A DNA stretch of 64,000 nt from Ensifer adhaerens (GTDB lineage: Bacteria > Pseudomonadota > Alphaproteobacteria > Rhizobiales > Rhizobiaceae). This document shows, in pieces, positions 16,201-35,403 of this stretch; position 1 is the stretch's first letter; each line of letters begins with the position of its first letter. The stretch lies in assembly GCF_020035535.1 (NCBI RefSeq), contig NZ_CP083350.1, positions 2,180,501 through 2,244,500 of the forward strand. Reading direction: 5' to 3'. Made by a program: the position numbers and the translations under genes. The notes under the pieces were generated by a model. The model was not told the origin of the DNA, did not search any database, and saw only the letters and a list, made by a program, of their open reading frames with translations.

Positions 16201-16649
16201 AGGCAGAGCTGAAGTACGGTGCCTCCCTTGGTCTCGCGCGACAGCTTCGTGTCAACGATTTCGTATGACCAGGGGCCGAGGTCGCTCCCCACCTCGACCC
16301 TGCGAAGCACATCGGCCCGCCCGATCCATCTGTCGCCACCGAGCGCGGCTTGTGCGATGACATGCACACCGGAGCGCATGGCTTGCAGTGTCGCGTCCAC
16401 CGTCTCATCCGTCACGCCCACCCCAGCGATCGCTGTGGCGGTGAGCCCGAGGCTTGCGAGATGATCGAGGAACTGCTGCTCGTGCCGAAAACCGCGCTCC
16501 TGGAGAACCTCAAGAAGCGGATCCGAACGAAACGGTTTGGCACGGGCTCCGTGCGCTACTTGGAGATCAAGCTCTGTCAGATGCCGACAGTTCAGGTGCC
16601 CGACGAGGTCACTTGCGCTGAGGACAATGTCTGTGCCGATTCGCCGCAT
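13260..16649 (-). CDS. RecB-like nuclease / RNase H / SF1 helicase fusion (TM0106 type)
   Basis: I start at the internal ATG (M-R-R-I-G-T-D-I-V-L-S-A-S-D-L), where TM0106-family proteins normally begin; an in-frame TTG at 16745 is an alternative. About 1,129 residues in three parts. First, a RecB/Cas4-like nuclease (G-R-A-D-V, then I-V-D-T-K and L-Q-L-C-L-Y) closed by a cysteine cluster C-D-V-C-R-W-A-P-A-C. Second, an RNase H-like domain (F-F-D-L-E-G-D-P). Third, a superfamily-1 helicase with Walker A G-P-P-G-T-G-K-S at about residue 754, a D-E-A-A box, G-D-Q-Q-Q-L and a late D-K-F-Q-G-Q-E. It is predicted to unwind and cut DNA, or RNA-DNA hybrids, in the cytosol. It sits 114 bp after an HNH nuclease gene in the same direction, suggesting a nucleic-acid defence or repair pair. 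Confidence 0.9.
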   Translation of the reverse strand: MRRIGTDIVLSASDLVGHLNCRHLTELDLQVAHGARAKPFRSDPLLEVLQERGFRHEQQFLDHLASLGLTATAIAGVGVTDETVDATLQAMRSGVHVIAQAALGGDRWIGRADVLRRVEVGSDLGPWSYEIVDTKLSRETKGGTVLQLCLYADLLERLQGVTPEFVHVVVPWSDFAPQMFRVADYGAFYRKARRAAEAASSVGGAPTHYPEPTEHCDVCRWAPACETRRREDDHLCLVANISKSQITELQAHGVSTSAALSQLPFPMPWKPDRGSPASFQKVISQAQIQVSAREAHDLRYELLDVVPGFGLCRLPEPSPGDIFFDLEGDPFIGEHGLEYLFGYHYRDDGGKRVRVADWAFDRRSERAAFERFMDFVVERLALYPELHVYHYAPYEPGALKRLMGRYATREAEVDDLLRGKVMVDLYGVVRHALRASVESYSIKRLEPFYSFERSTPLQEANLALTSMQAALELDDALSIGDATKEVVSSYNDDDCRSTEALRDWLEQLRTGAIAAGALIDRPVNGPDEPREDISEREQRVAALIERLTHDVPVDVTERSAAEQGRWVLAHCLGWHRREAKAVWWEFFRLRDLTASDLMDEKAGLGGLRFLGTVEVTGRGIPTDRYGFDAQDTDIRDDAELRAAGGEHFGKVVAISKDERTVDVKKTGKSAEMHPEGVFAHKVIGTEQQEGSLFRLAEYVADNGIEGEGRYQAARDLLLRHRPRVDGPLHAPDESTLECALRISRLLRGGVLPIQGPPGTGKSFTAANMICRLIQDGKRIGITANSHKVIRNLIDKVIEVGGTSVLAGHKTEKDGTDHLRIFASNEQAAASIKSGQVNVLGATPYFWSRDDVADSVDVLFADEAAQMSLANVLAVSPAAPTLVLLGDQQQLEQPTQGSHPDGTGVSALDHVLQGSKTIAPENGLFLEHTWRLHPSITAFNSELFYEGKLFSIPSCSVQDIASNGPFTGTGLRYVPVVHAGNQSSSVEEAIAVARIVDALLNSEARWTDRDGETRALGLQDIIIIAPYNAQVFEIQERVPGAHVGTVDKFQGQEAPVAIFSLATSSHADAPRGMEFLYSANRLNVAISRAKCMAILVASPQVFEAECKTPRQMQLANAFCRYLELAETIAL

Positions 16650-16763
16650 TCCCAGACTATACGGCGTCTGCGGGTATTGTCGAACTGCCTCAGCGATAAA
16701 TTGAACCGTGGGCAGATCTCGCAGCGCGCAAAGCCAAAGCGGCAAGCTGCCGCCTGCTCAAGT

Positions 16764-18188
16764 TCAGGCGCCTCCGAGTGATCCGACCGCAATTCCATTC
16801 GGCACCGGTTTTCGCCAGGATAGCCGCGCTGCGTCATGATGCTCCGCCAAGCGCCTTTCACACGCATGCAAGTGGACCTTCTTGCCGTGAAGGTCGGCGT
16901 ACTCGAGGTGGGTCGCAATCCACGGAGCGAGCCGGATGGTCATCGTGTCCGGATCAATCGACAGCAATTTGCTGTCAAACAGCCCGTGTATGTCTGAGCG
17001 CAGAAGTAGCCCGTTCCTGGGGCTGTTGACCAACGGTCCGCCCTTATAATGCGGCGATATGTGCGCTGCCTGCAGGATGTCGGCGATTGCGGTTCCAGTC
17101 ACGCAGCATCTTGCGCCGTACATCTCAATGAGACGCCGCCGAAAATAGGTTTGCTCGGGGCGGGTCTGCACGAGGGCGTATGACGGAATACGCACTCCGC
17201 TACTGTCTGCGTCGTGTTCCAGGAGGGCGGAGAGGGCCTGCCAGTCCGAGTAGATGACGTCCACGATTGCATCCCGGTGTCTTTCAAGGCTTATGCAGGT
17301 GGCCCTTGCGTTGAGAGACGCAACCACATCGTCGCCGAAAGAGGACTTGGCATAGGGCTTGCCATCATTGAGCCAGGCGACGCTACGGCGGAAGGCCGTG
17401 TCATGCTCCACGAGTTCGGGATAGTAAATTGGTGAGCTAAGAACTCGCCCCACGTATACATCGGTGCTGTGAGGGACCAGGACTGCGTCTCCGATCTTCA
17501 TTCGCCGCAAGAAGCGCTGCATTTCTCCGGCGCCTTTTCCCGCGTGAACACGGTCGCCATACGCGCCTTCGATGATTGCCCTAAATTCGTCTTCTTGCAC
17601 GTCAGCGGAGATGAGCTTCGATGCTTCGCTCCAGCCGATCGAGATCTGATCGTCTTCGATCACTTCTAGGACCTTGTCGATCCCTCGGGGTCTGATGTGG
17701 AGCCGATAGAAATCCACGCCTGGGAGCCGGACAACCGATCCCGACTGAGGATCGGGGGCGCGTTCCTCCCTCAACTGAGCGGCCCATTCCAGGAAGCGTT
17801 TCGTCTGACTGACGATGTCGCGAGGCGCTCCATCAAGGCATGCGACCTTGTAATAGCGTTTGATGCCGTTCGACAGTTGGACATTAACCAGAGTTCCCGG
17901 GAGGGGCTCCAACTCTTCGAGATGCCGAACGCCAGCGGCCACCTGGACCGCGCTTGAGCGAAGAAGCCAGAGCTTTCCCTCGGCATCGCGCGCCACAAGG
18001 CCCCGATTATTGCCTGGCAGGCCATCTCGCGCTGGATTTATCTCGATGATCTTGTCACTGCTGCGACCTTGTTCATCGATCAAACCAAGTACTGAGTAGA
18101 ATGGCAAGTCGGCCCGATGCCATTGACCCACTTCGATCCAAACACCCAGATTGGGGGGCCGGCAGAGTTCGTTTTGTCCGACAGACAT
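16764..18188 (-). CDS. HNH endonuclease with EVE-like middle domain
   Basis: The frame is open to 18326, but the ATG at 18188 has a good AAGGGAG ribosome site and begins a compact protein (474 residues). The middle has a stretch (I-G-D-A-V-L-V-P-H-S-T-D-V-Y-V-G-R-V) like the EVE/MrcB-type modified-base reader fold. The C-terminus is an HNH nuclease: C-C-V-T-G, A-A-H-I-S-P, then R-N-G-L-L-L-R-S-D-I-H-G-L-F-D. This resembles modification-dependent restriction enzymes that read a base and cut. It lies directly before the RecB/helicase fusion. HNH is certain; the reader domain is tentative. Confidence 0.85.
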   Translation of the reverse strand: MSVGQNELCRPPNLGVWIEVGQWHRADLPFYSVLGLIDEQGRSSDKIIEINPARDGLPGNNRGLVARDAEGKLWLLRSSAVQVAAGVRHLEELEPLPGTLVNVQLSNGIKRYYKVACLDGAPRDIVSQTKRFLEWAAQLREERAPDPQSGSVVRLPGVDFYRLHIRPRGIDKVLEVIEDDQISIGWSEASKLISADVQEDEFRAIIEGAYGDRVHAGKGAGEMQRFLRRMKIGDAVLVPHSTDVYVGRVLSSPIYYPELVEHDTAFRRSVAWLNDGKPYAKSSFGDDVVASLNARATCISLERHRDAIVDVIYSDWQALSALLEHDADSSGVRIPSYALVQTRPEQTYFRRRLIEMYGARCCVTGTAIADILQAAHISPHYKGGPLVNSPRNGLLLRSDIHGLFDSKLLSIDPDTMTIRLAPWIATHLEYADLHGKKVHLHACERRLAEHHDAARLSWRKPVPNGIAVGSLGGA

Positions 18189-18362
18189 CGCGCTCCCTTC
18201 GGCCCAGAAGGCGTTTCGCCAGACGATCATTGCGGACATGATAGTGGCGCGATCTTCGACGGACTGCATATCGGCGGCACTCGGCATCTTAAACTCACAA
18301 TTGCACGGATAAAAAAGTGGCCCCATCGCGAATGACAGGAACAGGGCAGACTGGATTATGGG

Positions 18363-21064: not shown

Positions 21065-21498
21065 AGAGTGGTCGCTACCTTGAATTGAATAAAAGCCATC
21101 TATCAACCAATACTTAATTCGAGATAAACGCCTGAAGTCCCGACTGCTTCCAGCTTAATCTGGAAAGGGTCTTGGCTTAGATCTCGGACAAGCCCATCCA
21201 ACGGTCAAGATGAGGAAGAGAACCTGCGTCTGCTCGGGGCGCGGGCCGAAAAACTGGACGTGAAGTATGTCGAGTGAAAAGCTTCGGAGCATCAGGGTGA
21301 ATCCTACCAGGCCTGAAGTTCCATCGTGAATATACAGACTGCCTCAGTTTTCGACCGAATGAGGGCTTGGCTGGCGGTATCAATGCAAGCCTGGTGCGGG
21401 TCGAGCCTTCGCGAAAGGTATTCTCTTCCGGACCATCCGAAATGGTTGGGACAGGCTCTGCGCCGTCACCCGAGCGGGTAACGGGCTAGGACGATCCC
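21065..21498. other. Intergenic region with no gene seen
   Basis: About 430 bp before the nuclease/motor operon. No ORF has convincing composition or a ribosome site, and I see no RNA gene or clear repeat. Confidence 0.35.
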
Positions 21499-21511
21499 GT
21501 TTACCGTAAAC
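21499..21511. promoter_or_regulatory. Palindromic operator candidate upstream of the Zorya-like operon
   Basis: GTTTACCGTAAAC is a perfect 13-bp palindrome around a central C, about 95 bp before the first gene of the operon. A degenerate echo, TTTACTTGTAG, follows about 20 bp later. The AT-rich surroundings would suit a promoter. Regulator unknown. Confidence 0.4.
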
Positions 21512-21606
21512 AAAGTCTTAATTTACTTGTAGTTGAAAAATTCCGCGTCCTGCATTAACCACCAATTCTAAGGGGATAGGGGCGCGGAAAAATTTGTAGA
21601 TTCCTT

Positions 21607-22251
21607 TTGATCGTCGCATGGGCGCTTACCGCATCGATCGCGGTGTCTGGAGAAGCCGTCAGGGTTGTCGACGGCGACACCTTGGACATTGGTGGCATTC
21701 GCTACCGGCTTCATGGAATTGATGCACCGGAAGCGGGCCAAGCCTGTAGCGCCAAGGGCGGCGGTACTTGGCCATGCGGCAGAGACGCGATCCGCCAGAT
21801 TGAAGATCTCGTCCAGGGCCGTAATGTCACATGTGAACCCAAAGGCCGCGATACCTACGGGCGAGTGATCGCCGTCTGCTTCGCCGACGGCGGCGAAATC
21901 AATTCCGCCATGGTTCGCGCTGGACTGGCCTGGGCATTCCGGAAATATTCCGAAGACTACGCTCAATTGGAGCAAGAGGCCCGGCAGGCCCAGGTGGGCG
22001 TCTGGCAGGCCGAAACCGAGACACCTTGGGACTATCGCGCTTCGAAGTGGGCTTCTGCAGTATCCCAGTCGCCGAACCAGGCGTGTCCGATCAAAGGCAA
22101 CATCAATCGTCAGGGCGAGCGCATCTATCACGCGCCGTGGTCCCGAGACTACGCCAAAACCAAGATCAATACCGCCAGCGGTGAACGCTGGTTTTGCTCG
22201 GAAGACGAGGCCGTTGCGGCCGGTTGGCGGCCTCCAATGTGGGGGCGGTAG
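21607..22251 (+). CDS. Secreted thermonuclease-like (SNase) protein
   Basis: The frame starts at a TTG with no better in-frame start. The first ~16 residues form a short signal peptide, so the product is probably periplasmic. The staphylococcal-nuclease fold is clear: V-V-D-G-D-T, then Y-R-L-H-G-I-D-A-P-E and D-T-Y-G-R. R34, E42 and R86 match the spacing of the catalytic R35/E43/R87 of the S. aureus enzyme. A C-terminal domain (W-F-C-S-E-D-E-A-V-A-A-G-W-R) is common in rhizobial homologues. It lies 26 bp upstream of the membrane/motor genes and appears to be the first gene of their operon. Whether it is part of the system or a passenger is open. Confidence 0.85.
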   Translation: MIVAWALTASIAVSGEAVRVVDGDTLDIGGIRYRLHGIDAPEAGQACSAKGGGTWPCGRDAIRQIEDLVQGRNVTCEPKGRDTYGRVIAVCFADGGEINSAMVRAGLAWAFRKYSEDYAQLEQEARQAQVGVWQAETETPWDYRASKWASAVSQSPNQACPIKGNINRQGERIYHAPWSRDYAKTKINTASGERWFCSEDEAVAAGWRPPMWGR

Positions 22252-22277
22252 CCGCACCTCTATCTCAGGATAACATC

Positions 22278-23732
22278 ATGGCACCTCGATTTGACTCGCT
22301 AAACAAGCTCTTCGAAAGCGTCCGGGAATCGAACCACGATTTCCGCGTCACCACCGATCCGTTCCCGCCGCTCGACGTCGACAAGCTGGAACGGACCCTG
22401 GAGCTGGAAGAAAAGGGCACGCGGAACGGCAAAGCAAACACGCCGAAAGAGGACTCGCGCGATCAGGACGAAGTCGAGAGAGGCATAGCCGAACGGATCG
22501 AAAGCTTGCGTGACGACGCATACCAGGTACTTGAGGGGCATCTAAGCACCTACGGTACGCGTTTGCGCAACCTCGACTTCGACGGCCACTTCAACAGAAT
22601 CCAAGTTGTCAACAATGCGAGCGTCGATGACTTCCGTGCCGACGTGGCCACGGGGCGCGACGAGCTTCATGGCCTTCGGAAGGATCTGAGAGAGTCGGAT
22701 GTCGAGCTTGCCAATTTCCGCAAGCTGAATGGTCTTGAGCTGAGGGTCGCCCGCACCAAAGGGCGGATGGCGACCATCCTCAAGTGGTGCGTCATCCTCG
22801 CCCTGTTGATCGTCGAAACGATGGTAAACGGCATCTACCTCGCTAAGGGCAACGACCAAGGCCTTGTCGGCGGCATCGGATACGCCTTTTCGTTCGCGTT
22901 CGCGAACGTGGTCTCGACAGTCGTGCTGGGTCTTTTCGTCGTGCCGCGGGTCGTGCACCGATCGTTCTGGTGGAAGCTGGTGGGCCTGCTGGGCATCGCC
23001 GCCTGGCTGACGGTGGCGTTGGGCCTGAATCTGGTGATGGCCCATTATCGCGAAGTCTCCGCCACGGCGTTCGACAATGTCGGCCGTATTGTCATGGAGC
23101 GCCTGACCAATGCGCCACTGGTCATGAACGATATCGACTCGTGGGTGCTGTTTGCCAGCGGCGTCCTTTTCTCAACGATCGCACTCATCGATTCCCTTCT
23201 GATGAAGGACCCGTACCCGGGTTACGCCGACACCTACACCCGGTACGTCGACGCCCGTGACGATTACATTGATCGCAAGGCGGATCTGATCGATCAGCTG
23301 AAGGGGATCCGCGACGACCACAATCAGAAGGTCGACGGCATCATCCTTGCTCTTTCTCAACGCCGGAAGGAATGCGCTGCCATCATCGACAGCCGTACGA
23401 GGATGATCAAGCAGTTTTCGGAGCACCAAAACCATCTCGAAGTCTCTGGTCGGCGCCTGTTCGCTACCTACAGGGAGGCCAACCGAGCCACCCGCACCGA
23501 ACCTCAGCCCAAACGGTTTTCGACGCAGTACAGCCTCGATCGGCGAAAGCCTGCCATCGATAAGTCGGACGACTGGAGCGACAAGGAACTGGGCGAACGC
23601 ATCAAAGCAGCTCAAGCCGAAATGGCAGACCAGATGAAGCGCATCAGCGCCGAATTCGAAGCCGCAGTCACCGCCTATCACCAACTGGACAATCTTTTCC
23701 CGGAGACGATCAATGGCCCGGCGCAGGCGTAG
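22278..23732 (+). CDS. Four-TM membrane protein with coiled coils
   Basis: ATG 22278 has an AGGA site and begins a 484-residue protein (the frame is open further upstream inside the SNase gene). About 155 residues of charged, helical cytosolic sequence precede four membrane helices (near residues 165-185, 193-215, 222-245 and 280-300). A long cytosolic coiled-coil tail of about 170 residues follows. No known family is recognised. It overlaps the next gene by 20 bp and is part of a tight operon with the MotA- and MotB-like genes. I infer a scaffold or sensor subunit of that membrane complex. Confidence 0.75.
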   Translation: MAPRFDSLNKLFESVRESNHDFRVTTDPFPPLDVDKLERTLELEEKGTRNGKANTPKEDSRDQDEVERGIAERIESLRDDAYQVLEGHLSTYGTRLRNLDFDGHFNRIQVVNNASVDDFRADVATGRDELHGLRKDLRESDVELANFRKLNGLELRVARTKGRMATILKWCVILALLIVETMVNGIYLAKGNDQGLVGGIGYAFSFAFANVVSTVVLGLFVVPRVVHRSFWWKLVGLLGIAAWLTVALGLNLVMAHYREVSATAFDNVGRIVMERLTNAPLVMNDIDSWVLFASGVLFSTIALIDSLLMKDPYPGYADTYTRYVDARDDYIDRKADLIDQLKGIRDDHNQKVDGIILALSQRRKECAAIIDSRTRMIKQFSEHQNHLEVSGRRLFATYREANRATRTEPQPKRFSTQYSLDRRKPAIDKSDDWSDKELGERIKAAQAEMADQMKRISAEFEAAVTAYHQLDNLFPETINGPAQA

Positions 23733-24525
23733 AAGAAAAGACGGGTCGCCGTGGGCGATAGTCGGCATCATCGGCCTGATGGCCTTCGTGTTCCTGAGCG
23801 TTGCAGGCTATGCGATGCTCAAGATCCGGGCTGGTGAAGCTGTGGCGCTTGACGACGATCTATGCCCCGCGACAGGCCCGGTGTCCGTTAGAGCCATACT
23901 GCTCGACTTGACCGACCCAATCTCGGAAATCACGCAAGTTGACCTGAAGCGCCAGTTCGAACGGACAGTGTCGGAGATCGAAGTCGGCGGCCTGCTCGAG
24001 GTCTACGCGCTCACGGACGAAGAAGGGAAGCTGACCCGGACCTACCGGGGGTGCAATCCAGGTGACGGCGCGACCGCGGATCCGTGGACATCCAATCCGC
24101 GAAAGAAGCAGCAGCGTTGGGAAGAGGCTTTCAACAAGCCGCTGCAGGATCTTTCGGAGTCAATTGGCAGCGGCAGCGAGTCGAAGCATTCACCAATCCT
24201 GGCAGGCATTCAGCGCATCGTGATTGAGAGCTTCTCGGCTGGCAAGCTAGAGGGTGCCTCTAAGCAACTGTATGTCGCCTCCGACATGATGGAGAACACG
24301 GACGCGTTCTCGATCTACAAATCCGGTGCTGACTACGAAGCGTTCCGCAAAAGCGCTGCGCGCGACAAGTTCAGAACGCCGCTTGATGATACCGAAGTCA
24401 AGTTCTGGGCATTCCAGCGAGAGGCTGCGGCCAAAGTAAAAGACCTTCCGGAATTTTGGGCGGCTTGGGTGAAAGCGAACCGAGGCGACCTCGTCGGTTA
24501 CGAGCGACTTGCAGGGATTGAATGA
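23713..24525 (+). CDS. Membrane-anchored VWA-like protein
   Basis: The 270-residue protein has a very basic cytosolic N-terminus (R-R-R-R-R-R-K), one membrane helix (about residues 14-36) and a periplasmic domain. The core strand A-I-L-L-D-L-T-D-P-I-S, then L-L-E-V-Y-A-L-T, a middle helix and Q-L-Y-V-A-S-D-M-M, fits a von Willebrand A-like fold. The D-x-T-D-x-x-S sequence is a degenerate MIDAS site. It overlaps both neighbours (20 bp before, 4 bp after), so stoichiometric co-translation is likely. The fold is inferred from pattern only. It may sense or bind something at the cell envelope. Confidence 0.72.
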   Translation: MARRRRRRKDGSPWAIVGIIGLMAFVFLSVAGYAMLKIRAGEAVALDDDLCPATGPVSVRAILLDLTDPISEITQVDLKRQFERTVSEIEVGGLLEVYALTDEEGKLTRTYRGCNPGDGATADPWTSNPRKKQQRWEEAFNKPLQDLSESIGSGSESKHSPILAGIQRIVIESFSAGKLEGASKQLYVASDMMENTDAFSIYKSGADYEAFRKSAARDKFRTPLDDTEVKFWAFQREAAAKVKDLPEFWAAWVKANRGDLVGYERLAGIE

Positions 24526-25970
24526 TGAGGAACATCGACATTAGGACGTTCGTCCGCGATCACGGACCAATTTGTCTCTTCGTCTTGATGACGATCATCG
24601 GGGCGGCCGTAATCTGGTTTGGCAAGCTTTACGACCTGGACATCTCGATCGTCACCACCATCCCGATCGTCTTGATGCTCGTCTATCTTGTGCTCAACCT
24701 GCTGCCCGGACTCAGGGTTCGCAGCGAACAGGCCGGTGACAACCTCTACTACATGGGGTTCATTTTCACCCTCGCGAGCCTCGGAATCTCGCTCTACAAG
24801 TTCACGGGCGAGGCCTCGATCGAGGACGTCGTGCGCAACTTCGGCATCGCGATCGTGTCGACGATCACGGGCATCGCGCTTCGCATCTTCTACAACCAGA
24901 TGCGCCGTGACCCGGCCGACATCGAAACGGCAGTGCGCGTCGAGCTTGCCGAGATGACGCGGCGCGTCAGGACCGAGCTCGACACATCTGCACTCGAGTT
25001 TTCTAGCTACCGCCGCACCAGCAACCAGATGCTGTCGGAAGGCTTCGAGGAGATCGCCAGGCAGGCGCAAAGGAACGGGGAAGCCGTCAGGGCGTCGATC
25101 GAAGCAATGTCCGTCAAGGCTACGCAGACTATTCAAGAGACCTCGGAGAAATTGCTGGCAACGCTCGAGAAGACGCACGCACAACTTGCCGAACTCGCGG
25201 ACAAGAATGTGAAGACGGTCGAGCGGGTCGCGGAACAGGTGGACAAGTCGGTCGGGCAAGTCGTCCAGCGCGCCGATGCCCTTTCGAGTACGATGGAAAG
25301 CCTGACGGCAAAGTTTTCGATCGCAAGGTCTCCCGACGAAATCCTGCGCGTAGACGTCACTCCCGCGATCGAAGCTCTGAAAGACCTGGTTGACGGCAAC
25401 GTGAAGTCGATCGAAGCCAACACCGTGGCAGCGCGCGATACGGCCAAAAAGGTGATCACCGCCATCGGTCCGTTCAAGCAGGTGGCAGCACAGCTAAACG
25501 CGCTGTCCGTGGACATTAAGGGATCCACCGCCGCAGTGGGTTCGTCCGCCGAGGCGTTGGGCAAGGCGTCCGAACAGATCCGGGAGGCAATGGACGCAGT
25601 CCGCTCCATGCTTGATGCGGAGCGCAACACGGCTGAGCAGGTTAGGAATCTCGCCGGCGTGGTGAACACTCTCGAGCTTCGCAGCTCGGAACGCGACGAG
25701 CGGGGCGCAGTTCAGAGCGACCGTATCGAAATAGCGCTGGCGAAGGTCGAAGCCATTGTCGCCGTGCCTGCTGTCGCAGAGTCCGCGTCAGTAGTGGATG
25801 AGCCTGTAGAAGCCTTGGAGAAGCCCGCGGCGGATTCGACGGAAACCAGGCCGATCATGCCGGCGCCGGCTGGAGAGGACGCCATCACGGTGCCGGAGAT
25901 GACCACCGCCGCCATTGAGGCAGCAGAACCGCAGCCTGACAAGTCGCGGTGGAGCATCTGGAACCGATGA
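24522..25970 (+). CDS. MotA/ZorA-like channel protein with long coiled-coil tail
   Basis: A 482-residue protein with four membrane helices in the first ~120 residues. The third and fourth carry small polar residues (T-L-A-S-L-G, then I-V-S-T-I-T-G), as expected for the ion path of MotA/TolQ/ExbB-type proteins. A cytosolic tail of about 250 residues is a continuous coiled coil rich in A, E, V, S and T. It is followed by a disordered proline/alanine-rich C-terminus. ZorA of Zorya has this plan: MotA-like membrane core plus long cytosolic tail. It is coupled by 4-bp overlaps to a VWA-like gene before and a MotB-like gene after. Assignment is by architecture, not by a family profile. Confidence 0.72.
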   Translation: MMRNIDIRTFVRDHGPICLFVLMTIIGAAVIWFGKLYDLDISIVTTIPIVLMLVYLVLNLLPGLRVRSEQAGDNLYYMGFIFTLASLGISLYKFTGEASIEDVVRNFGIAIVSTITGIALRIFYNQMRRDPADIETAVRVELAEMTRRVRTELDTSALEFSSYRRTSNQMLSEGFEEIARQAQRNGEAVRASIEAMSVKATQTIQETSEKLLATLEKTHAQLAELADKNVKTVERVAEQVDKSVGQVVQRADALSSTMESLTAKFSIARSPDEILRVDVTPAIEALKDLVDGNVKSIEANTVAARDTAKKVITAIGPFKQVAAQLNALSVDIKGSTAAVGSSAEALGKASEQIREAMDAVRSMLDAERNTAEQVRNLAGVVNTLELRSSERDERGAVQSDRIEIALAKVEAIVAVPAVAESASVVDEPVEALEKPAADSTETRPIMPAPAGEDAITVPEMTTAAIEAAEPQPDKSRWSIWNR

Positions 25971-26983
25971 GCAACACCATCGCAGGTGCCGAAGGGCGCG
26001 GCTACAATCGTGGGCTCATCCTTGGCTTCACAATGGCGGAATCGTTGCTGCTCGTCGTGTTCTGCCTGCTGCTTGTGGCCGCCGCGATTATTTCGAAGGA
26101 ACGGCAGCGCGCGACGGAGGCTGAGCAGCGAGCGACCCGTGCAGAGGAGCAGGTTCTGGCCAAGAGCCACGATGCCGAAGAGCTGCAGAAACAGATCAAA
26201 GAGATGCAGGTTCAGCTTGCCGCCGCCGGACGAGACCAGTCCGACGACGAGTGGCGTGAGCTGGTGCTCGCCAAAAAAGCCGTCGAAGCGTTGGCTGTGA
26301 AGTTTTCCGACAAAAACCCGAAGGAGATCGTCCGCAAGGTCACTGACATGCTCGAAGATTACCGAGAACTTCAGGCGGCCATTCCGTCTCAAAAGCGTCT
26401 GCAGGACGAGCATCTGAAGGCACTGGCTGAAATTTCTCGGTTGCGACAGGACTTGGATTCCAAAGCGAAAGAACTGGCGTCGCTTGAAAAGCCTTCGAAG
26501 CCACACGAGTGGCCGCCAATCATCACACTCAGCGAGGCTAACAACAACTACTTCCGCTCAGGCAGTGCCGAGTTGACCGTGGCGTTCGCGACCAAATTGA
26601 ACAGCTCCATCGCCGACCAAATAGCGAGCAACTTGCAGGCCTACGGCGCGGATATCGTGGAAGTCATTGGCCACACGGACGAACAGCCGATTTCCCGTGC
26701 CGGATCGAACATGGACAAGAACGCCATCGACGTGCTCCTGGCTCACAAGAACGTAACGTCGCTCGAGCCAGCTGACAACGCGGGTCTTGGTCTGGCGCGA
26801 GCGATCTCGGTCGCGAACGTATTGAAATCCAACAAATCGCTTGCGGATATCACCGTGCTCCCACTTTCGGCTGCTCAGCTAATCCTGCCCGGCGACACAT
26901 TGACGCGCGGCGAGGCGGGCGATGTCGAGACACGCCGCCGCATCGAAATACGCATCAGAAGACGTGAGGTGGCGGCGCAGTGA
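25967..26983 (+). CDS. MotB/ZorB-like protein with OmpA peptidoglycan-binding domain
   Basis: The 338-residue protein starts in a 4-bp overlap with the MotA-like gene. One membrane helix (about residues 17-40) begins G-F-T-M-A-E-S-L-L-L. The acidic residue E25 falls where MotB and ZorB carry their essential aspartate. A coiled-coil linker (about 45-185) leads to an OmpA-like domain: Y-F-R-S-G-S-A-E-L, V-E-V-I-G-H-T-D-E-Q-P-I, and a final E-T-R-R-R-I-E-I-R-I-R-R. This is the anchor expected for a stator-like complex tethered to peptidoglycan. Glu replacing Asp is unusual. Confidence 0.82.
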   Translation: MSNTIAGAEGRGYNRGLILGFTMAESLLLVVFCLLLVAAAIISKERQRATEAEQRATRAEEQVLAKSHDAEELQKQIKEMQVQLAAAGRDQSDDEWRELVLAKKAVEALAVKFSDKNPKEIVRKVTDMLEDYRELQAAIPSQKRLQDEHLKALAEISRLRQDLDSKAKELASLEKPSKPHEWPPIITLSEANNNYFRSGSAELTVAFATKLNSSIADQIASNLQAYGADIVEVIGHTDEQPISRAGSNMDKNAIDVLLAHKNVTSLEPADNAGLGLARAISVANVLKSNKSLADITVLPLSAAQLILPGDTLTRGEAGDVETRRRIEIRIRRREVAAQ

Positions 26984-27009
26984 TTGGTGGAGAAAGCGGG
27001 TAGCGAGAG

Positions 27010-28113
27010 ATGATATCGGACGACAAGCACTTTGAGTTGATCACGGCGGCGCTCCAACGCTTGACGATTCCAAACTCCGAAGTCTCGTGGAACACGCGTA
27101 TCGACAACAGACAGTTCGATGTTTTGGCCCGGATTAACGTCGGGCTTCATTCAGTGCTGCTTGCGTACGAAGTGAAACATAGATCGCGACCGGTCGGAGT
27201 AGATGCGGTCGAGGCTTTCGTGACTAAGGCGAGGGATGCGAACGTAAACAAGGCAACGTTCGTCAGCACGTCTGGGTTTCAAAAAGGCGCTGTTAACGTT
27301 GCGAAACGGCACGGGATCGACCTCTTCACCTTGAGCTTGCAACCCAGTGATAAGCCTAGCTTTTCACCGCAGGCGTCATATCTTGTCTTCAGCCGACTCG
27401 GCTCAGCGAATGCACGGCTGTCGGAAATAGAGGTGGTCGAGACCGACAAACCAATGAACGCGGTCGTGAAGTGCGTCCTCCACTACGTCGACGGGCAAGA
27501 GGTGGTGCTACCCGATGAGCCGACGCAGATGACCTACTGCCTCGAGCGCAGCAGCATTGGAAAGAGGTCGTTGGCGGACCTGATCAAAATACAAGCGGGC
27601 AAGCCGGTGGCTACGGGCACTACGAACGTGCGTTACGTTCCGGTTGACGGCGAAGTAGTCCCGCCTGACGAGTTCTTCATCCACCGGGGGAGGCTTCTCC
27701 AGATAGAGCTTCACGTGGAAGGCGTTATCGGCAACGTGCTTGGCGGCGACGTCCGTATAGATCTCACGGCGCTGCAGAATACAGTCCGCTACCAGAATGT
27801 AATTTCTGGATCGATCGCGGAATTTCCGCTGTCATCACTGCCCGTAGGCGAACCTACATTTACGCCCGGAGCTTTCTATTTCTTGGAGAATCCGCTCCGA
27901 TACTACTATTGCGACGCTGTTAGAGGAAATATTGCTACTATTTTTTTAGTGGAGAGTTTCCAGTTGGGGCATCTATTTGGGGCGGAATTCACTCAGGAAG
28001 TGCAATTCGCATCGTTTTATATCCCTCTGGATGACCGGAAGATTTTGGAGCGCCTGCGGCGTAGGCTCCAGCGAATGAAGTCGCAAAGTGTTCTCACCTA
28101 CCGCCCTGGATAG
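27010..28113 (+). CDS. Mrr-type PD-(D/E)xK nuclease
   Basis: A 367-residue soluble protein, 26 bp after the MotB-like gene with a GAGAG ribosome site. The N-terminal 110 residues show an Mrr/restriction-endonuclease fold: R-Q-F-D-V-L-A (D37), then A-Y-E-V-K-H (E54, K56), and later T-F-V-S-T-S-G-F-Q-K-G-A and G-I-D-L-F-T-L. The remaining 250 residues are beta-rich and unrecognised, possibly a target- or partner-binding part. By analogy with Zorya, whose cytosolic effectors are nucleases or helicases, it is the likely effector of this operon. Confidence 0.8.
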   Translation: MISDDKHFELITAALQRLTIPNSEVSWNTRIDNRQFDVLARINVGLHSVLLAYEVKHRSRPVGVDAVEAFVTKARDANVNKATFVSTSGFQKGAVNVAKRHGIDLFTLSLQPSDKPSFSPQASYLVFSRLGSANARLSEIEVVETDKPMNAVVKCVLHYVDGQEVVLPDEPTQMTYCLERSSIGKRSLADLIKIQAGKPVATGTTNVRYVPVDGEVVPPDEFFIHRGRLLQIELHVEGVIGNVLGGDVRIDLTALQNTVRYQNVISGSIAEFPLSSLPVGEPTFTPGAFYFLENPLRYYYCDAVRGNIATIFLVESFQLGHLFGAEFTQEVQFASFYIPLDDRKILERLRRRLQRMKSQSVLTYRPG

Positions 28114-28133
28114 AGTCTAATCAGAGCACGGTC

Positions 28134-29115: not shown

Positions 29116-30576
29116 TCAAGCGACGCATCCACGTTGAGCAAAAGTCCGAACTACTGCGTCCGACTTGAATGATGCCAGCCGGAATAGAAGTCCCGGACGA
29201 TGACATCTCCCAAGGCGGACGACCGCATGCCCACAGAACATTCGCGTTCCGTGGACATCGGAACCCCGAGTGCCAAGCGGCACGTCGGGGTGCGGGCGGC
29301 GGTAGCCAATCTTCGCCGCTTTGATTGTCCGATGGACGTCCTGCCATGAGCCGAGTTCGGCGGGCACCTTCCCATTCTTCCATAGACGGGAAACACACCC
29401 TTCCTCGAGAGCTGGCAGGACCTCCTTCATTCCAGCCAGACGGGCGATGCCGCGCCTGGCGATCTCCGTTGCCGACGCACAGGCGTCGGGGGCATCGAAG
29501 GCGAGGTTTCCAATGGTCGAGGAATACCCCGCCCAGACCTCAAGCACTTCGATCCCGGCAAGTCGGGCGCGGCGTATCAGCATCTGCACGAACACAGCTC
29601 TTGCCCAGTAGTTCAACAGCCTGTTGAGGGTGCGGTTCTTGCCGCTCGACCGCAACTTGCCAAGGCCCTTCTCCAGAACGATCGCGCCGCAGCGATGCTT
29701 GCGCGCCATCGAGATGGCGCGGTCGCAGGCCGCTGCCAAGGTCTCGCGCACAAGCTCTGACGACGAATCCTTCGGCATGTCGGGCTTCACCAGGGCATGT
29801 TCCAGCAACCTGGTATCCTTGACTGACGTGGCGTTGGCTTTGTTCGCCGCCGCCGCGAAACCGATCCAGTTGGGATTAAGATCGATACCGAGGCAACGCC
29901 CCTTGATCGGCACGACCGGTCGCCGCCGCTGCGGGTGGTTCGGCAGATGGGCAGGATCGAAGGTCACGCTCACATGCGTGTCGCTGATGGCGAAGCTGAC
30001 ATTGATGCGATCCGCCTCCGCCTTCTTTGCGCAGATCTCAGCCAACTGCCGCATGATGATGCCGCCGTTTCCGGTCATGCGGGCGAGGTTGAGAACCGCC
30101 GTGCGCGTCACCGTCTTTCCTGAGCGGCCGCCACTCTCCTTGCGGCCAATCCTGACGACGACCGTTGTGTCGTCGACCAGGTGGATGTTTTGGTTTCCGC
30201 GCACCTTTTGTCGATCGCCGAAGCTGACGAACGGGTGTAGCCTCTTGCGCTGCCACTCGTCCCTTGAGATCAGACCCTTGCGCCGGCGCTCGAACGCCTC
30301 TTTACCGCCGAAGATCGCCGTACCATCGGAAGACAACTTGCGCTTCCACATGCCAAGCTTCGTCGCGCAGTGGATAGCCCAGCTGTCGAGCAGACCCTTA
30401 TGGGCAAACCGCGCCTTCACCAGATTGCGCAGGTCCATTTCCTTCGTCTTGGAACCGTCGGCGAGCAGCGCGTTAGCATAGGCCGTTCTGATCGCTGCCG
30501 ATTGCACACGGCGCAGATCGTCGAGGAACGACTGGTCGTCATCTGAACAGCGATAGGGGACGGAGATGGTTTGCAA
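29116..30576 (-). CDS. tnpB: TnpB-family RNA-guided nuclease-like protein, zinc-finger-less
   Basis: A 486-residue protein with an N-terminal helical region (A-T-K-L-G-M-W-K-R-K-L) and a RuvC-like nuclease. Candidate catalytic residues are D232 in G-I-D-L-N-P, E302 in I-V-L-E-K-G and D364 in F-D-A-P-D-A-C. The C-x-x-C zinc finger of canonical TnpB is absent. Instead it has Y-S-S-T-I-G-N followed by A-T-E-I-A-R-R-G, the pattern of the TnpB-related subgroup. TnpB proteins use an RNA from the element's 3' end to cut DNA and keep the element in place. Here the gene ends only 5 bp from the left terminal repeat, so any guide RNA must overlap the coding region. The C-terminal ~80 residues look element-specific. 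Confidence 0.8.
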   Translation of the reverse strand: MQTISVPYRCSDDDQSFLDDLRRVQSAAIRTAYANALLADGSKTKEMDLRNLVKARFAHKGLLDSWAIHCATKLGMWKRKLSSDGTAIFGGKEAFERRRKGLISRDEWQRKRLHPFVSFGDRQKVRGNQNIHLVDDTTVVVRIGRKESGGRSGKTVTRTAVLNLARMTGNGGIIMRQLAEICAKKAEADRINVSFAISDTHVSVTFDPAHLPNHPQRRRPVVPIKGRCLGIDLNPNWIGFAAAANKANATSVKDTRLLEHALVKPDMPKDSSSELVRETLAAACDRAISMARKHRCGAIVLEKGLGKLRSSGKNRTLNRLLNYWARAVFVQMLIRRARLAGIEVLEVWAGYSSTIGNLAFDAPDACASATEIARRGIARLAGMKEVLPALEEGCVSRLWKNGKVPAELGSWQDVHRTIKAAKIGYRRPHPDVPLGTRGSDVHGTRMFCGHAVVRLGRCHRPGLLFRLASFKSDAVVRTFAQRGCVA

Positions 30577-30948: not shown

Positions 30949-31009
30949 TGCTGGGGGACATCTCGACGATTTCGTTGCGTCGAGTGTCGCCGGCGGCGAT
31001 CCTTGATTG

Positions 31010-32635
31010 ATGACGACTGGGGTATTGGAATTGCGGGGAAGGGATCAGTTCGGGCTGCCGATGCTTGCGGTAGTGAGAGCGGCCGCGCGTGAGTTATCTC
31101 AAGTTGTTCCTGAGGGCGCCGACCTGGGAGAGGTCTGCCTGCATCTTGGTTCATTTGACACCAAGGCCGTGGACGTTTTGCGTCTTCGCCTGTCGTCTTT
31201 GGCAGCGAGCGAGCGAAACTACTGGATCGGCACCCTTTACACGCTGATGATCTCGGCGGACTTGCGGCGTGCTCAAGCCACGTATTTCACTCGCCCGGAT
31301 CTTGCCGAAGCGGTTATCGACCTGGCGATCGAGCATGGATTCGATCTTCGGGAACATAGTGTCCTCGATCCCGCAGCTGGTGGCGCTGCTTTCCTTTCGC
31401 TGATAGCCCATCGGATGCGAGCGGAAAAACTCGATCCGGCAGACATCGCGAGCAGGCTGAACGGAGTGGAGATCGATGTCAGCCTCGCCACGATGTCCGA
31501 ATCCTTAATCGCCGAACAGCTCGAAGGATACGCTGGCAGGCGCATCGTCTCTCCTGGGGACAGCCTCCGTCATGAGTTCGCGAAATCCTATGACCTTGTG
31601 ATCGCGAATCCACCATACGGCAGGATCACTGCCAAGGATTTGGAGAACGACCACTGGATGAAGGTCGCCCACAGCGGGCATATCAACAAGTACGCAGTAT
31701 TCACGGAGCTATGTTTTAGACTGACGAAGCCCGGCGGTCTTGTCGCACTAGTCATCCCGTCGAGCTTCAAGGGCGGGCCGCTCTATGACCGGATGCGCTC
31801 CTTCATCGCCAACCGCGGTCAAATCCTCGCCCTTGGCACCGTGGTCAGCCGTGAGGACGTCTTCGCCGATGTTACCCAAGATATCAGCGTACTACTTGTG
31901 AGGGTCGGCGGCTCGCACCCGCCATCCGCAGCAGTGAAATTCCCTTCGTTTATTGCCGGAGGCATCGCACGCCCGGTTCCGGCCGGGATCCTGCCTGGGG
32001 ATGTGTCCATGCCGTGGCTGGCGCCTTGGGATTCGCGTCGAGACCGGGGAGGTGCCACGATCGCGGACTATGGTGGTCATGTGAAAGCTGGATACTTCGT
32101 TTGGAACCGCTCTCAGGAGAAGTTCTGCGCGTCGACGGATCCGGGTGCACTACCGCTTTTCTGGGCCAAAAACATCCGCGCAGGTACACCCTGCAAGCCG
32201 CGCAATCGCAAAAATGACGGCACTGACTTTGTCACGGTTCCGAAGGATAGCCCCGCGATAATCAGCGGGCCTGCCATCATGGTCCAGCGCACGACGAACA
32301 GCAGCCAGTCCCGAAGAATAGTAGCCGCCGTAGTGGATCAGAACTCGATCGCGGGGTGGCCGGGCTTCGTCAGTGAGAACCATACGATTGTCATTACGGG
32401 CGACCGTGCCGACGATCTCGCGCTGTTAGCCTCGCTGTTAAACACGAAAGCAGTCGATGAACGTTATCGCGCGGTATCTGGCACTGCCACGGTGTCCGTG
32501 AAGCTTCTCAGGGAACTGGATCTGCCCTGGCCGCAGTCGTTCCGCGACGCCCTTCTAAACGGTTTCGACGCGGAGGAGGCGGCCGTGCTTGCGTATCGGA
32601 ATGGCGAGCGGCGTCCTCTTGCGGAGGCTTCGTGA
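31010..32635 (+). CDS. N6-adenine DNA methyltransferase, DISARM-like locus
   Basis: ATG 31010 follows an in-frame TTG. The 541-residue enzyme has the SAM-binding motif L-D-P-A-A-G-G-A-A-F near residue 125 and the catalytic N-P-P-Y at residues 200-203. These place it with Eco57I/type I-like N6-adenine methylases. The C-terminal part, with a D-Q-N-S-I-A-G-W-P-G-F segment, resembles target recognition regions. It should methylate host DNA to mark self. The stop overlaps the next start (TGATG). In DISARM, N6 methylases mark class 1 loci, but the neighbouring large gene does not look like the class 1 helicase DrmD. Confidence 0.87.
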   Translation: MTTGVLELRGRDQFGLPMLAVVRAAARELSQVVPEGADLGEVCLHLGSFDTKAVDVLRLRLSSLAASERNYWIGTLYTLMISADLRRAQATYFTRPDLAEAVIDLAIEHGFDLREHSVLDPAAGGAAFLSLIAHRMRAEKLDPADIASRLNGVEIDVSLATMSESLIAEQLEGYAGRRIVSPGDSLRHEFAKSYDLVIANPPYGRITAKDLENDHWMKVAHSGHINKYAVFTELCFRLTKPGGLVALVIPSSFKGGPLYDRMRSFIANRGQILALGTVVSREDVFADVTQDISVLLVRVGGSHPPSAAVKFPSFIAGGIARPVPAGILPGDVSMPWLAPWDSRRDRGGATIADYGGHVKAGYFVWNRSQEKFCASTDPGALPLFWAKNIRAGTPCKPRNRKNDGTDFVTVPKDSPAIISGPAIMVQRTTNSSQSRRIVAAVVDQNSIAGWPGFVSENHTIVITGDRADDLALLASLLNTKAVDERYRAVSGTATVSVKLLRELDLPWPQSFRDALLNGFDAEEAAVLAYRNGERRPLAEAS

Positions 32636-35403
32636 TGAGAGGTGACCGCAAGGATTTCAGAGGCGCTCCGGGAGCAGCCCTTTCCGATCGTCTGCGACAG
32701 CAGCAGGAACAGGCGCAGCGCCGTTCCGACATGTTTGCCTCCCGGAAAACTCGATCTAACGGGCCGTTCGCTGGCGGGCAGGATCGCGCAAATGAGAACC
32801 TCGTTGAAGGCAGAAACGCGGACGCATGGATCGAGGCGTTGCGGAAGGTTCCCTTGAAGGCGGTCGCTTGTGAACCGCTTCCACTCTCAGAGGTATACGA
32901 GAGCATATTGCGCGCGGCGGTCGGATCGATGGACCAAGGGAAGCCAGTCGTCGTGATGACATGGCCCGCAGGGGATATCTGCCTTTCGGCGGTTACATCC
33001 CTGCTGGCACTCGCAGATGTCGCGGCATGTCCGGGGGTTGAGGTCGAAGCCCACGGGGGCAGGGTGAATTCATTCGAGCGCCCGCGCGGTCTGAAGGCCC
33101 TCATTTATCCGTACGCCCGCACCACCCACGAAGCCGCGCGGGATATCCAAGTGGACCGCGACTACCTCTATCGCACACATATTGCCCATCTCACGAGGCA
33201 CACGAGCGGGAACGACGACCGTGAGGCGCTGAAAGACTACCACCAGATACTCAGCCGGGTGCGCACCCTCAATGGAAGGCGGAGAGACGGAAGTGTCCGC
33301 CCGGAGTTCGAACATCCGACACTGGATGAGATCATGCCACACGGCAACTGCGAGGGGACGGCCCATCCGAACGGCACGTTGCTCTGGAGGACGAGTTCGA
33401 GAACCGATCTAAAGGAGCACAACACGGCCCGCACCCACGCCGACGTGGGTAACAGCGCGAGCTACTTCCTATACGGGGCGCGCAGGGGAGATGAGATCGG
33501 CTTCCGCAAGATCCGGGGCGGTCTTGACCTGATCATCTTCGATCTCACGAAGAAGGGCCGGCTCAGACTCGGGGAAGACTGGGTCGTCACGATATCCCGG
33601 ATGTACCGTCACCTGCGCAAGTTGTTCCCCTTCGCGGGCGTAGTCGCCGTGACAGAGGATCCATGGTCTTTCGACAAGGCCAGATTCGGAATTTTCAATG
33701 ATGAGCCTTCGCAGCTGAGAAATCGTGTCGTCCGGCCGTCCAGGTCTTTGACGGTCACCGCAATCTCTTCTTCGATACTCTGTGATCGTACCGAAAAGCC
33801 GACTTGGGTCGGCGGAGGCGATGTCCGTGCGAAGGGGTTCAACGGCGAAGGCAGAGCGGTCGCGGAACAGCTCCGGGTCGTCCTTAATCGGCTTCATAGA
33901 GCTCGCGACCGGGATGGGGCCGCTGCTGTCAGTGACATCATGGGTAAGCTCCGGCGCGCTGCTTCGCTACCCGGCTCGCTGCACTCGCTCGCCGATCATC
34001 TCGTGAATGGAGAGGGGGAGACGGTAGCTATCAACGTGATGGACAACTACAGCATCGCGGAACAGGTCCGGTACCTCCGACAGCCCTCGTCGGCCGCCTT
34101 CGTCATCGGCGGCGAGGATCTCGCGGGTCCATTGCGCGAGGCCACGGCCGTCATGAAGCGGCTGAACCAAGCCACGCCGATGTCGTACATGCTCGAGGAT
34201 GAGGTCTCTGCCATACTGCATTCCTCCTCCAAAGCCCTCTTCATGTTCCGCAGTCAGATGATCGCCGAGTTCGCTCGAACTGCGCTGTGCAAGCGGCTGC
34301 CGAAACTTTCGAGCCGTCTCGAAAAGGAGATGATCGTCTTTTCGGGGCCAGGTGGACGTTTGGACGTAGCGGGCCTCCCAGTGTCGGAGCGGAACAAGTT
34401 CAAACGAATATACGTGGTTGCGCCGTCGCGGGACGGCGTACTGACCTTCTTTGCGCGCGAGTGGCTGCCTTCTGAGGTCTATGTCCTGGCGGACGGCGAC
34501 ACACTTGCCTATTCGTCCCGCGATGCCTTCCGGCTCGCAGATCAGGTCAAGGAACCTGAGATAGCGTCACGTCTCAGGAAATATGCGTCATCGGCGGCCG
34601 AGGAGATCGCTGGCCTCGGAATGTCGCCGATCGAAATCACCAAAACGCCGGATCTACCCGAGGAGCTTCAGTTTCCTTCAGAGTCGGTCATCAACCTCGC
34701 TGGGGACATACGTGCAGCCAGCGGCGATCTTCTGGAGCTCGCGATGGACAGCGGCCAGAAAATCATCGCGCGTCCAGGGACCGGCCTCGTTCGCCAGGAT
34801 CGATCGAAGTCCATCACAGCTTTCCGCCAGATCGAGGCGAAGGATGTGAAAGTGGGGGAAAATGTCTGCGTTATCAGCTCGGGTTTCGTTGACCGCGCAC
34901 GCCTTCTACTCAGCATCCCAGCGAATGCGTCAGAGGCAATCCGCGGATATCATCAGGATGTCGTTCGGAGGTTCTCTCTCCTCCCCGGCTTCCATGAGAC
35001 GGACAAGATACGGACCCTCATCGACCGGATCGGGGATCCCACCCTGCAGGTTCAGACGGTGCGGCGTTGGATTCATCTCGACAAACAATTGCAGGCGCCT
35101 CTCCACGAGGTTGTGACCCAAGCTCCACGAGAGCGGGAGACCTTCCTGAAATTCACGGCTGCACTCGGCATGAGCGATGATCTGGCCGGACGCTTCTGGC
35201 ACTGGGGCGTGAAGGCGCAGCGGAGCTTCAGGATGAAGGCGGGGATGGAATTCCACGATGCGTACCGGAACATCCTGACGGACCCGCATGCCGCGCTGGC
35301 CTTTGCAGGGGATGCTAAGCGCGTCTCTGAGATCGAAGGGCTGCAGCGCCTGGCAGAGGAAAACGTCAGTCAGGTGACATCGGTGAGGAGGTTCAAGCAG
35401 TGA
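32635..35403 (+). CDS. Large defence protein in the DrmE position
   Basis: A 922-residue protein starting at ATG 32635 after a GGAGG site. The N-terminus is basic and glutamine-rich. Later come V-V-V-M-T-W-P-A-G-D-I-C-L-S (about 100), a long region with no clear motif, and a C-terminus with F-W-H-W-G-V-K-A-Q-R-S-F and F-H-D-A-Y-R-N-I-L-T-D-P. I do not see helicase motifs. Its place just before a DrmA helicase and DrmB suggests a DrmE-type component, the large protein of class 2 DISARM with no assigned activity. That naming is tentative. One-base overlaps join it to both neighbours. Confidence 0.6.
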   Translation: MRGDRKDFRGAPGAALSDRLRQQQEQAQRRSDMFASRKTRSNGPFAGGQDRANENLVEGRNADAWIEALRKVPLKAVACEPLPLSEVYESILRAAVGSMDQGKPVVVMTWPAGDICLSAVTSLLALADVAACPGVEVEAHGGRVNSFERPRGLKALIYPYARTTHEAARDIQVDRDYLYRTHIAHLTRHTSGNDDREALKDYHQILSRVRTLNGRRRDGSVRPEFEHPTLDEIMPHGNCEGTAHPNGTLLWRTSSRTDLKEHNTARTHADVGNSASYFLYGARRGDEIGFRKIRGGLDLIIFDLTKKGRLRLGEDWVVTISRMYRHLRKLFPFAGVVAVTEDPWSFDKARFGIFNDEPSQLRNRVVRPSRSLTVTAISSSILCDRTEKPTWVGGGDVRAKGFNGEGRAVAEQLRVVLNRLHRARDRDGAAAVSDIMGKLRRAASLPGSLHSLADHLVNGEGETVAINVMDNYSIAEQVRYLRQPSSAAFVIGGEDLAGPLREATAVMKRLNQATPMSYMLEDEVSAILHSSSKALFMFRSQMIAEFARTALCKRLPKLSSRLEKEMIVFSGPGGRLDVAGLPVSERNKFKRIYVVAPSRDGVLTFFAREWLPSEVYVLADGDTLAYSSRDAFRLADQVKEPEIASRLRKYASSAAEEIAGLGMSPIEITKTPDLPEELQFPSESVINLAGDIRAASGDLLELAMDSGQKIIARPGTGLVRQDRSKSITAFRQIEAKDVKVGENVCVISSGFVDRARLLLSIPANASEAIRGYHQDVVRRFSLLPGFHETDKIRTLIDRIGDPTLQVQTVRRWIHLDKQLQAPLHEVVTQAPRERETFLKFTAALGMSDDLAGRFWHWGVKAQRSFRMKAGMEFHDAYRNILTDPHAALAFAGDAKRVSEIEGLQRLAEENVSQVTSVRRFKQ

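Follow-up and report, generated by a model that had tools for sequence, protein, structure and literature searches.

An uncatalogued four-gene set in Ensifer adhaerens and its relatives, a candidate envelope machine whose nuclease is exchangeable and presumably periplasmic

Zorya is an envelope motor coupled to a nuclease. To our knowledge the route from the state of its motor to its effector has not been solved, and we know of no motor-type defense system that cuts DNA in the periplasm. The extension of ZorA from S. kujiense comprises residues 100-378 (PMC11890865). SNIPE, a membrane nuclease composed of DUF4041 and GIY-YIG, is reported to act at the inner membrane, where it cuts the DNA of phages while it is being injected (PMC13190303). 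Here we analyze six genes at positions 21607-28113 of a 64,000-nucleotide stretch of Ensifer adhaerens (GCF_020035535.1, contig NZ_CP083350.1, positions 2,180,501 to 2,244,500), the whole of which is called the window below. A previous sequence-only reading took the six genes for an undescribed relative of Zorya. Comparison of homologous loci gives good support to an architecture of four genes, together an uncatalogued envelope machine, and a nuclease that is exchangeable and presumably lies in the periplasm. Searches confined to open-access literature gave no description of a motor with an SNase or HNH joined to OmpA.

The region consists of six open reading frames (ORFs), all on the plus strand, the middle four of which are named G2 to G5. 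Together with the sequence upstream they are:

21498..21606, plus strand: candidate promoter region, copied with the unit (homology to a second genomic copy and to S. shofinae both start at 21498)
21607..22251, plus strand: SNase homologue, secreted, with a "sunset" domain at the C-terminus by NCBIfam (PF00565, E 2.1e-17; NF051437, E 1.1e-12, over its cut-off)
22278..23732, plus strand: G2, core gene of no known family, four transmembrane (TM) helices by eye with long helical parts on both sides
23713..24525, plus strand: G3, one TM helix and a presumed periplasmic domain, possibly VWA-like (29-sequence alignment; weak VWA alignment)
24522..25970, plus strand: G4, motor A-subunit candidate, four TM helices followed by a long helical tail (TM3/TM4 motifs; structure model; Foldseek and VIA searches)
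25967..26983, plus strand: G5, motor B-subunit candidate, TM helix with Glu25, coiled coil and OmpA-like domain (NCBIfam; PADLOC ZorB1; MotS/PomB)
27010..28113, plus strand: Mrr-type restriction nuclease, a local rider (PF04471, Mrr_cat, E 8.4e-9)

G2 and G3 overlap by 20 nt, G3 and G4 by 4 nt and G4 and G5 by 4 nt, and 26 nt separate G5 from the Mrr gene. The ratio of nonsynonymous to synonymous divergence (dN/dS) is 0.04-0.18 for five genes against the second copy in the same genome and for all six against Sinorhizobium shofinae (0.12 for Mrr), so the frames are truly coding. The tight same-strand arrangement reported earlier is confirmed, as are the identities of the SNase and the Mrr-type nuclease, both of which pass their Pfam cut-offs. 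The start codon of the SNase gene, TTG, is uncertain. The four TM helices of G2 and of G4 were read from the sequence and the model helices, with no TM predictor.

G2, G3, G4 and G5 stand on one strand and in one order at all 90 loci compared by profile searches (L003-L092, with 85 distinct G4 sequences). These loci were found through G4 or G2: 80 are the best 80 of 128 relatives retrieved with the G4 profile, eight came from a plasmid search with G2 and two from the relatives sample. They include identical G4 duplicates (L003/L090, L010/L092, L080-L083) and broken frames in G3 of L034 and in both G3 and G5 of L089. At L003 and L004 the retrieved stretch ends within G2, and L038 has a short G2. 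Lack of co-occurrence in other genomes, which the sequence-only reading had named as one outcome that would speak against it, was thus not seen among loci collected in this way.

The second copy in the same genome (L114, G000:C2:1426391-1430080) reads SNase-G2-G3-G4-G5, without Mrr. It aligns with the window in one block of 5485 bp at 95.4% identity (21498-26981), which starts upstream of the SNase gene and ends on base 1 of the G5 stop codon. Homology to S. shofinae spans 21498 to 28116, Mrr included, and this species (L013) is the only one of the 90 loci at which BLAST matched the Mrr of the window. Because Mrr is found at 1/90 loci and is absent from the second copy, it is a rider outside the conserved unit, yet one under selection where it is present; on the same grounds Mrr was rejected as the effector. 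As the block of the second copy ends at the G5 stop without Mrr and the core is kept at 90/90 loci, the unit consists of the SNase and G2-G5, in place of the six genes first proposed. Synonymous divergence (pS) between the two copies is uneven, 0.05 in G4 and 0.33 in G3, as if parts had been exchanged.

Twenty wider regions were also viewed. All four core genes are present in 15 of them, L121 leaves its contig after G4, and four (L115, L116, L117, L125) hold divergent G2-G3 pairs without recognizable G4-G5. G2-G3 may thus form an independent module. The pair of L115 lies, by eye, beside Tat genes. A G4-G5 pair without recognized G2-G3 was seen at L269, where the G5 frame has about 591 residues.

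The secreted SNase is part of the unit, recurring near the core in several arrangements. It belongs to the PF00565 family and its motifs DGDT, RLHGIDAPE and YGR are directly readable, with D, R, DAPE and R being what we take to be the catalytic residues. When 47 SNase-family loci were compared with three motif expressions, 18 matched all, 19 failed the third only and 10 failed the first or second. A domain search of 110 loci (L003-L092 and L114-L133) found a separate SNase at 44, a nuclease fused to G5 at four and neither an SNase nor an HNH at 62. This set contains some repeats (L127 = L012 region, L129 = L003, L130 = L004) and the four regions with G2-G3 only, and its SNase counts are slightly low, since L003 was scored without an SNase though the wider L129 shows one. 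Among the 33 loci below 80% G2 identity, the SNase occurs in 23 and an HNH fusion in one more. The placement of the gene varies: the 29 SNase loci below 85% G2 identity carry it upstream or downstream, on the same or the opposite strand, or fused. Divergence of the SNase tracks that of G2, G3 and G5 (r 0.57, 0.60 and 0.54; 0/2000 permutations each, host relatedness uncontrolled), and the core genes track each other more tightly (r 0.92-0.93).

Three loci encode single proteins in which OmpA is followed by an SNase at the C-terminus of G5 (L126, 488 residues; L124, 588; L122, 544), and at L123 a 601-residue protein continues from OmpA into a GmrSD_C-type HNH domain (E 2.3e-11). G2, G3 and G4 adjoin all four fusions. 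Among 240 listed database relatives of G5, which are protein matches with gene neighborhoods not seen, 12 are SNase fusions, 50 are HNH fusions and none is both. Precomputed Pfam gives nine of the SNase fusions and our own profile 12, some of them partial; the 50 HNH fusions are found by both, and 44 of these keep a DxDH-type motif. Within the 120 matches listed per query, the G5 part of P0121 drew seven SNase and no HNH fusions and P0124 drew five and 50; two of the entries, P0125 and P0245, are copies (99-100%) of the query proteins. A search with the OmpA-HNH protein of L123 gave matches in 12 of 295 genomes of that family. Of the 11 other HNH match places, viewed wider, seven hold an HNH gene standing alone, with no core found nearby, and the HNH domain alone is therefore no marker of the system. 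The same search showed the complete core at L268, where an SNase lies on the opposite strand, G4-G5 only at L266 (a short contig) and L269, and G5 only at L267. No other single clue points as strongly to nuclease activity beside the OmpA domain as the output as does the occurrence of two unrelated nucleases at the same position of G5.

G5 is a plausible B subunit. The Glu of its TM helix (Glu25) is kept in 104 of 105 loci, as Glu and not Asp. The OmpA domain is seen at E 4.3e-4 in Pfam and at 4.5e-8 with the TssL/OmpA model of NCBIfam, in both cases below the cut-off of the model, and the PDB sequences closest to the domain are MotS/PomB chains (3e-4 to 1e-3). PADLOC ZorB1 matches at 4.4e-5 over residues 26-83, in the N-terminal part.

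For G4 the evidence lies in motifs and in the predicted fold. The motifs DNxYYMGFxxTLxS in TM3 and FGxAxxSTxxG in TM4 are both present in 102 of 106 G4 loci, and their likeness to those of TolQ/ExbB was judged by eye. An AlphaFold2 model of residues 1-250, with a mean predicted local distance difference test (pLDDT) of 82.1, reduces the TM2-TM3 loop to a few residues. This fold retrieves ZorA, TolQ, ExbB, PomA and MotA chains in Foldseek and VIA rows, and 94 residues align to 8vvi_C at 2.8 Å. The prediction tentatively supports a stator-type fold of G4, and the motor reading of G4/G5 is moderately supported. Sequence profiles behave differently. The Pfam matches of G4 (E up to 0.1) are mainly coiled-coil models and do not include PF01618 (MotA_ExbB), of which the genome has four matches on another contig. 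PADLOC ZorA models match G4 at E 0.005-0.043 over residues 141-387 only, past the TM helices, and NCBIfam ZorA_4 gives 14.4 bits over residues 87-327 against a cut-off of 500. No protein in 200 genomes exceeded the ZorA_4 cut-off, so a comparison set of type II ZorA was not available that way. Searched against PDB sequences, the N-terminal G4 profile returned two unrelated ABC transporters (best E 0.23) and the full profile only coiled-coil matches in the best 60. Values of hhalign were 0.3% against six ZorA, 0.2-0.3% against ZorA/TolQ/MotA and 15.9% against 18 gamma ZorA-like proteins, with decoys at up to 12.9%. Profile homology of G4 to ZorA/TolQ/MotA was dropped as evidence, although the test is a weak one (known pairs: ZorA-TolQ/ExbB 27.7%, ZorA-MotA 10.4%, TolQ/ExbB-MotA 95%). 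The term MotA-like accordingly retains the invariant motifs and the predicted fold and loses the profile, and the PADLOC ZorA models reach the tail of G4 only.

Neither G2 nor G3 matches Pfam, PADLOC or NCBIfam at E up to 0.1, and their profiles find nothing below E 0.016 among PDB sequences. The AlphaFold2 model of G2 is all helical (pLDDT 84.9); its fold search gave nothing below E 0.009 and helical bundles only, and TolQ appears in two of 50 VIA rows. In an alignment of 29 sequences, C51, C114, D65, D68, S190 and D191 of G3 are invariant. None of these 29 members has a VWA match in Pfam, and a weak collinear alignment with the VWA profile (3.4% against at most 0.9% for reversed decoys) sets D65 and S190-D191 on the VWA metal-site motifs. 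G3 is possibly VWA-like, and it is this alignment that remains of the earlier assignment.

The distribution of the set is patchy. The G2 profile has relatives in 13 of 385 genomes sampled from the class and in 10 of 398 of a phylum sample, all of the latter within the same class. Wider stretches, viewed for all of these but G165 and G806, show G2-G3 only in three genomes of the class set and in two of the phylum set. The G4 protein has matches in 3/101 of the relatives sample, the own genome included. A tblastn search of a plasmid collection gave 24 records with G2 and 24 with G4, the same 20 being among the matches listed. Carriage by phages is near nil, with one viral contig and no match in 50,697 phage records.

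In the window the unit lies between two further clusters, which agrees with the defense-rich neighborhood noted earlier:

13260-18326, minus strand: 1161-residue helicase with RNase_H_2 domain (MkoA, 2.9e-34), Mokosh-like, adjoining a 520-residue HNH protein
31007-39737, plus strand: Eco57I-type methyltransferase, 923-residue protein and 1445-residue DrmA-like protein in a row

At the limits used, neither PADLOC nor Pfam matched the 923-residue protein; the second cluster is perhaps a DISARM relative. At 29116-30576 on the minus strand lies a 486-residue TnpB/Cas12-like protein with weak matches to TnpB models (1.3e-6 and 5.8e-6), below the curated cut-offs. At other loci the contexts are mixed. 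A DUF4236+SH3_3 protein stands beside the core at L015:15992-17719 and at 12 further loci; a distinct SH3_3 protein does so at L008:12634-13392 and six others; both may be further satellites. The group L033-L064, many of R. tropici type, has the core in a shared setting with no SNase or HNH found, with DHDPS genes at 28 loci and PanE-like genes at 27. A flank survey counted, by reading and with no statistic, about 11-12 defense-like proteins at 15 loci (the window being outside this set) against 4-6 in 16 control regions of the same genomes. It covered 108 of 109 flank ORFs and 141 of 142 control ORFs, one flank ORF being dropped by the length filter and one control protein by the size limit. 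Among the families listed, 25 of 42 were read for flanks and 25 of 33 for controls, and a generic mad3 model (5 and 5) was set aside.

We favor, with a probability of about 0.5, a Zorya-like envelope motor made of G2-G5 whose periplasmic nuclease cuts DNA crossing the envelope. In a 5:2 assembly, a ring of G4 would enclose two helices of G5, and ions would pass Glu25 of G5 against the invariant Thr/Ser of TM3 and TM4 of G4. The OmpA domain of G5 would hold peptidoglycan, the G4 tail and the G2 coiled coils would extend into the cytosol, and G3 might serve as a sensor or coupler in the periplasm. The secreted SNase, or the SNase or HNH fused to G5, would thereby be kept in the periplasm beside the motor and, once activated by envelope disturbance, would cut incoming DNA as its probable target, most likely phage DNA at injection and possibly conjugating or transforming DNA. 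From this we infer a role in defense. More tentatively, the unit may represent a new class of periplasmic DNA-cutting machine, in which an ion-driven, peptidoglycan-anchored motor bears an exchangeable SNase/HNH on its B subunit and distinguishes self from non-self by compartment. In some species the B subunit carries the nuclease as a fusion, which fixes the place of the enzyme and makes the coupling of motor and nuclease directly testable. If this is a defense system, self would be told from non-self by compartment instead of sequence.

Several results weigh against the motor-with-nuclease proposal. G4 stays below 1% in hhalign against ZorA, TolQ/ExbB and MotA (known pairs also score poorly), no Foldseek E-value of G4 falls below 0.49, and its fold scores (Z) tie with designed helix bundles. 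Clear defense-type neighbors by name (DUF4041, CHAT) occur at one of seven annotated plasmid loci, with a HipA toxin at one more, and the enrichment of flanks over controls is only suggestive. The 62 of 110 loci with no SNase or HNH found, many from the R. tropici-type clade in a conserved chromosomal setting, would also suit a Tol/Ton-like machine for envelope maintenance or nutrients, whose nuclease scavenges extracellular DNA or clears periplasmic DNA and has no part in defense. SH3-domain and DUF4236+SH3 neighbors and plasmid loci among metabolic genes point the same way. The patchy spread (13/385 and 10/398), the two copies in one genome, the carriage on plasmids and the swap of unrelated nucleases at one position make such a housekeeping role unlikely in our view, if still worth serious attention.

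The nuclease on the OmpA subunit and the plasmid-borne copies could also fit a barrier to conjugation or natural transformation, directed at incoming plasmid or free DNA and not at phages; the near-nil phage carriage is neutral here. Conjugating DNA is thought to move inside a channel, which speaks against it, and we consider this barrier distinctly improbable. A true new Zorya type, in which Mrr would be the cytosolic effector of ZorA/ZorB and the remaining genes would be additions, could draw on the ZorB1 match (4.4e-5), the coiled-coil ZorA matches, the predicted fold of G4 close to type II ZorA, and an Mrr gene 26 nt downstream under purifying selection (dN/dS 0.12). It seems very unlikely: the second copy and 89 of 90 loci lack Mrr, the ZorA matches miss the TM core, and no ZorC-G model was seen among the scanned proteins. 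Specifically, PADLOC models for ZorC/D, ZorE and ZorF/G found none among eight operon-region proteins (E up to 0.1) or seven further window proteins (E up to 1e-5). Membership in Zorya is not supported by these tests.

Compared with known systems, the favored envelope motor would be a further, uncatalogued member of the ion-driven envelope machines. SNIPE differs in having a cytosolic nuclease domain on a single chain (PMC13190303) and no motor; the DUF4041 protein met here is merely a neighbor at one plasmid locus. The TolQR/ExbBD/MotAB stators resemble the unit through the TolQ, ExbB, PomA and MotA rows in the G4 fold searches and through MotS/PomB as the PDB sequences closest to the G5 domain, whereas G4 lacks a PF01618 match, has a TM2-TM3 loop of a few residues and a long tail, and is partnered by a nuclease. 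In type II Zorya (ZorA/ZorB/ZorE, 8vvi) the ZorA TM core gives no profile match to G4, and ZorB has Asp where G5 has Glu (PMC11890865). Here, an extra TM helix (by eye) and two more core membrane proteins are present, and the nuclease is secreted or fused to the B subunit, with no ZorE found. Of the motor-plus-nuclease logic proposed at the outset, the motor-like pair, the SNase and the additional membrane proteins G2 and G3 persist, and Mrr as effector falls away. What the unit appears to share with type II Zorya is a short TM core that continues into a long tail in the cytosol, an OmpA-type B subunit and a nuclease output.

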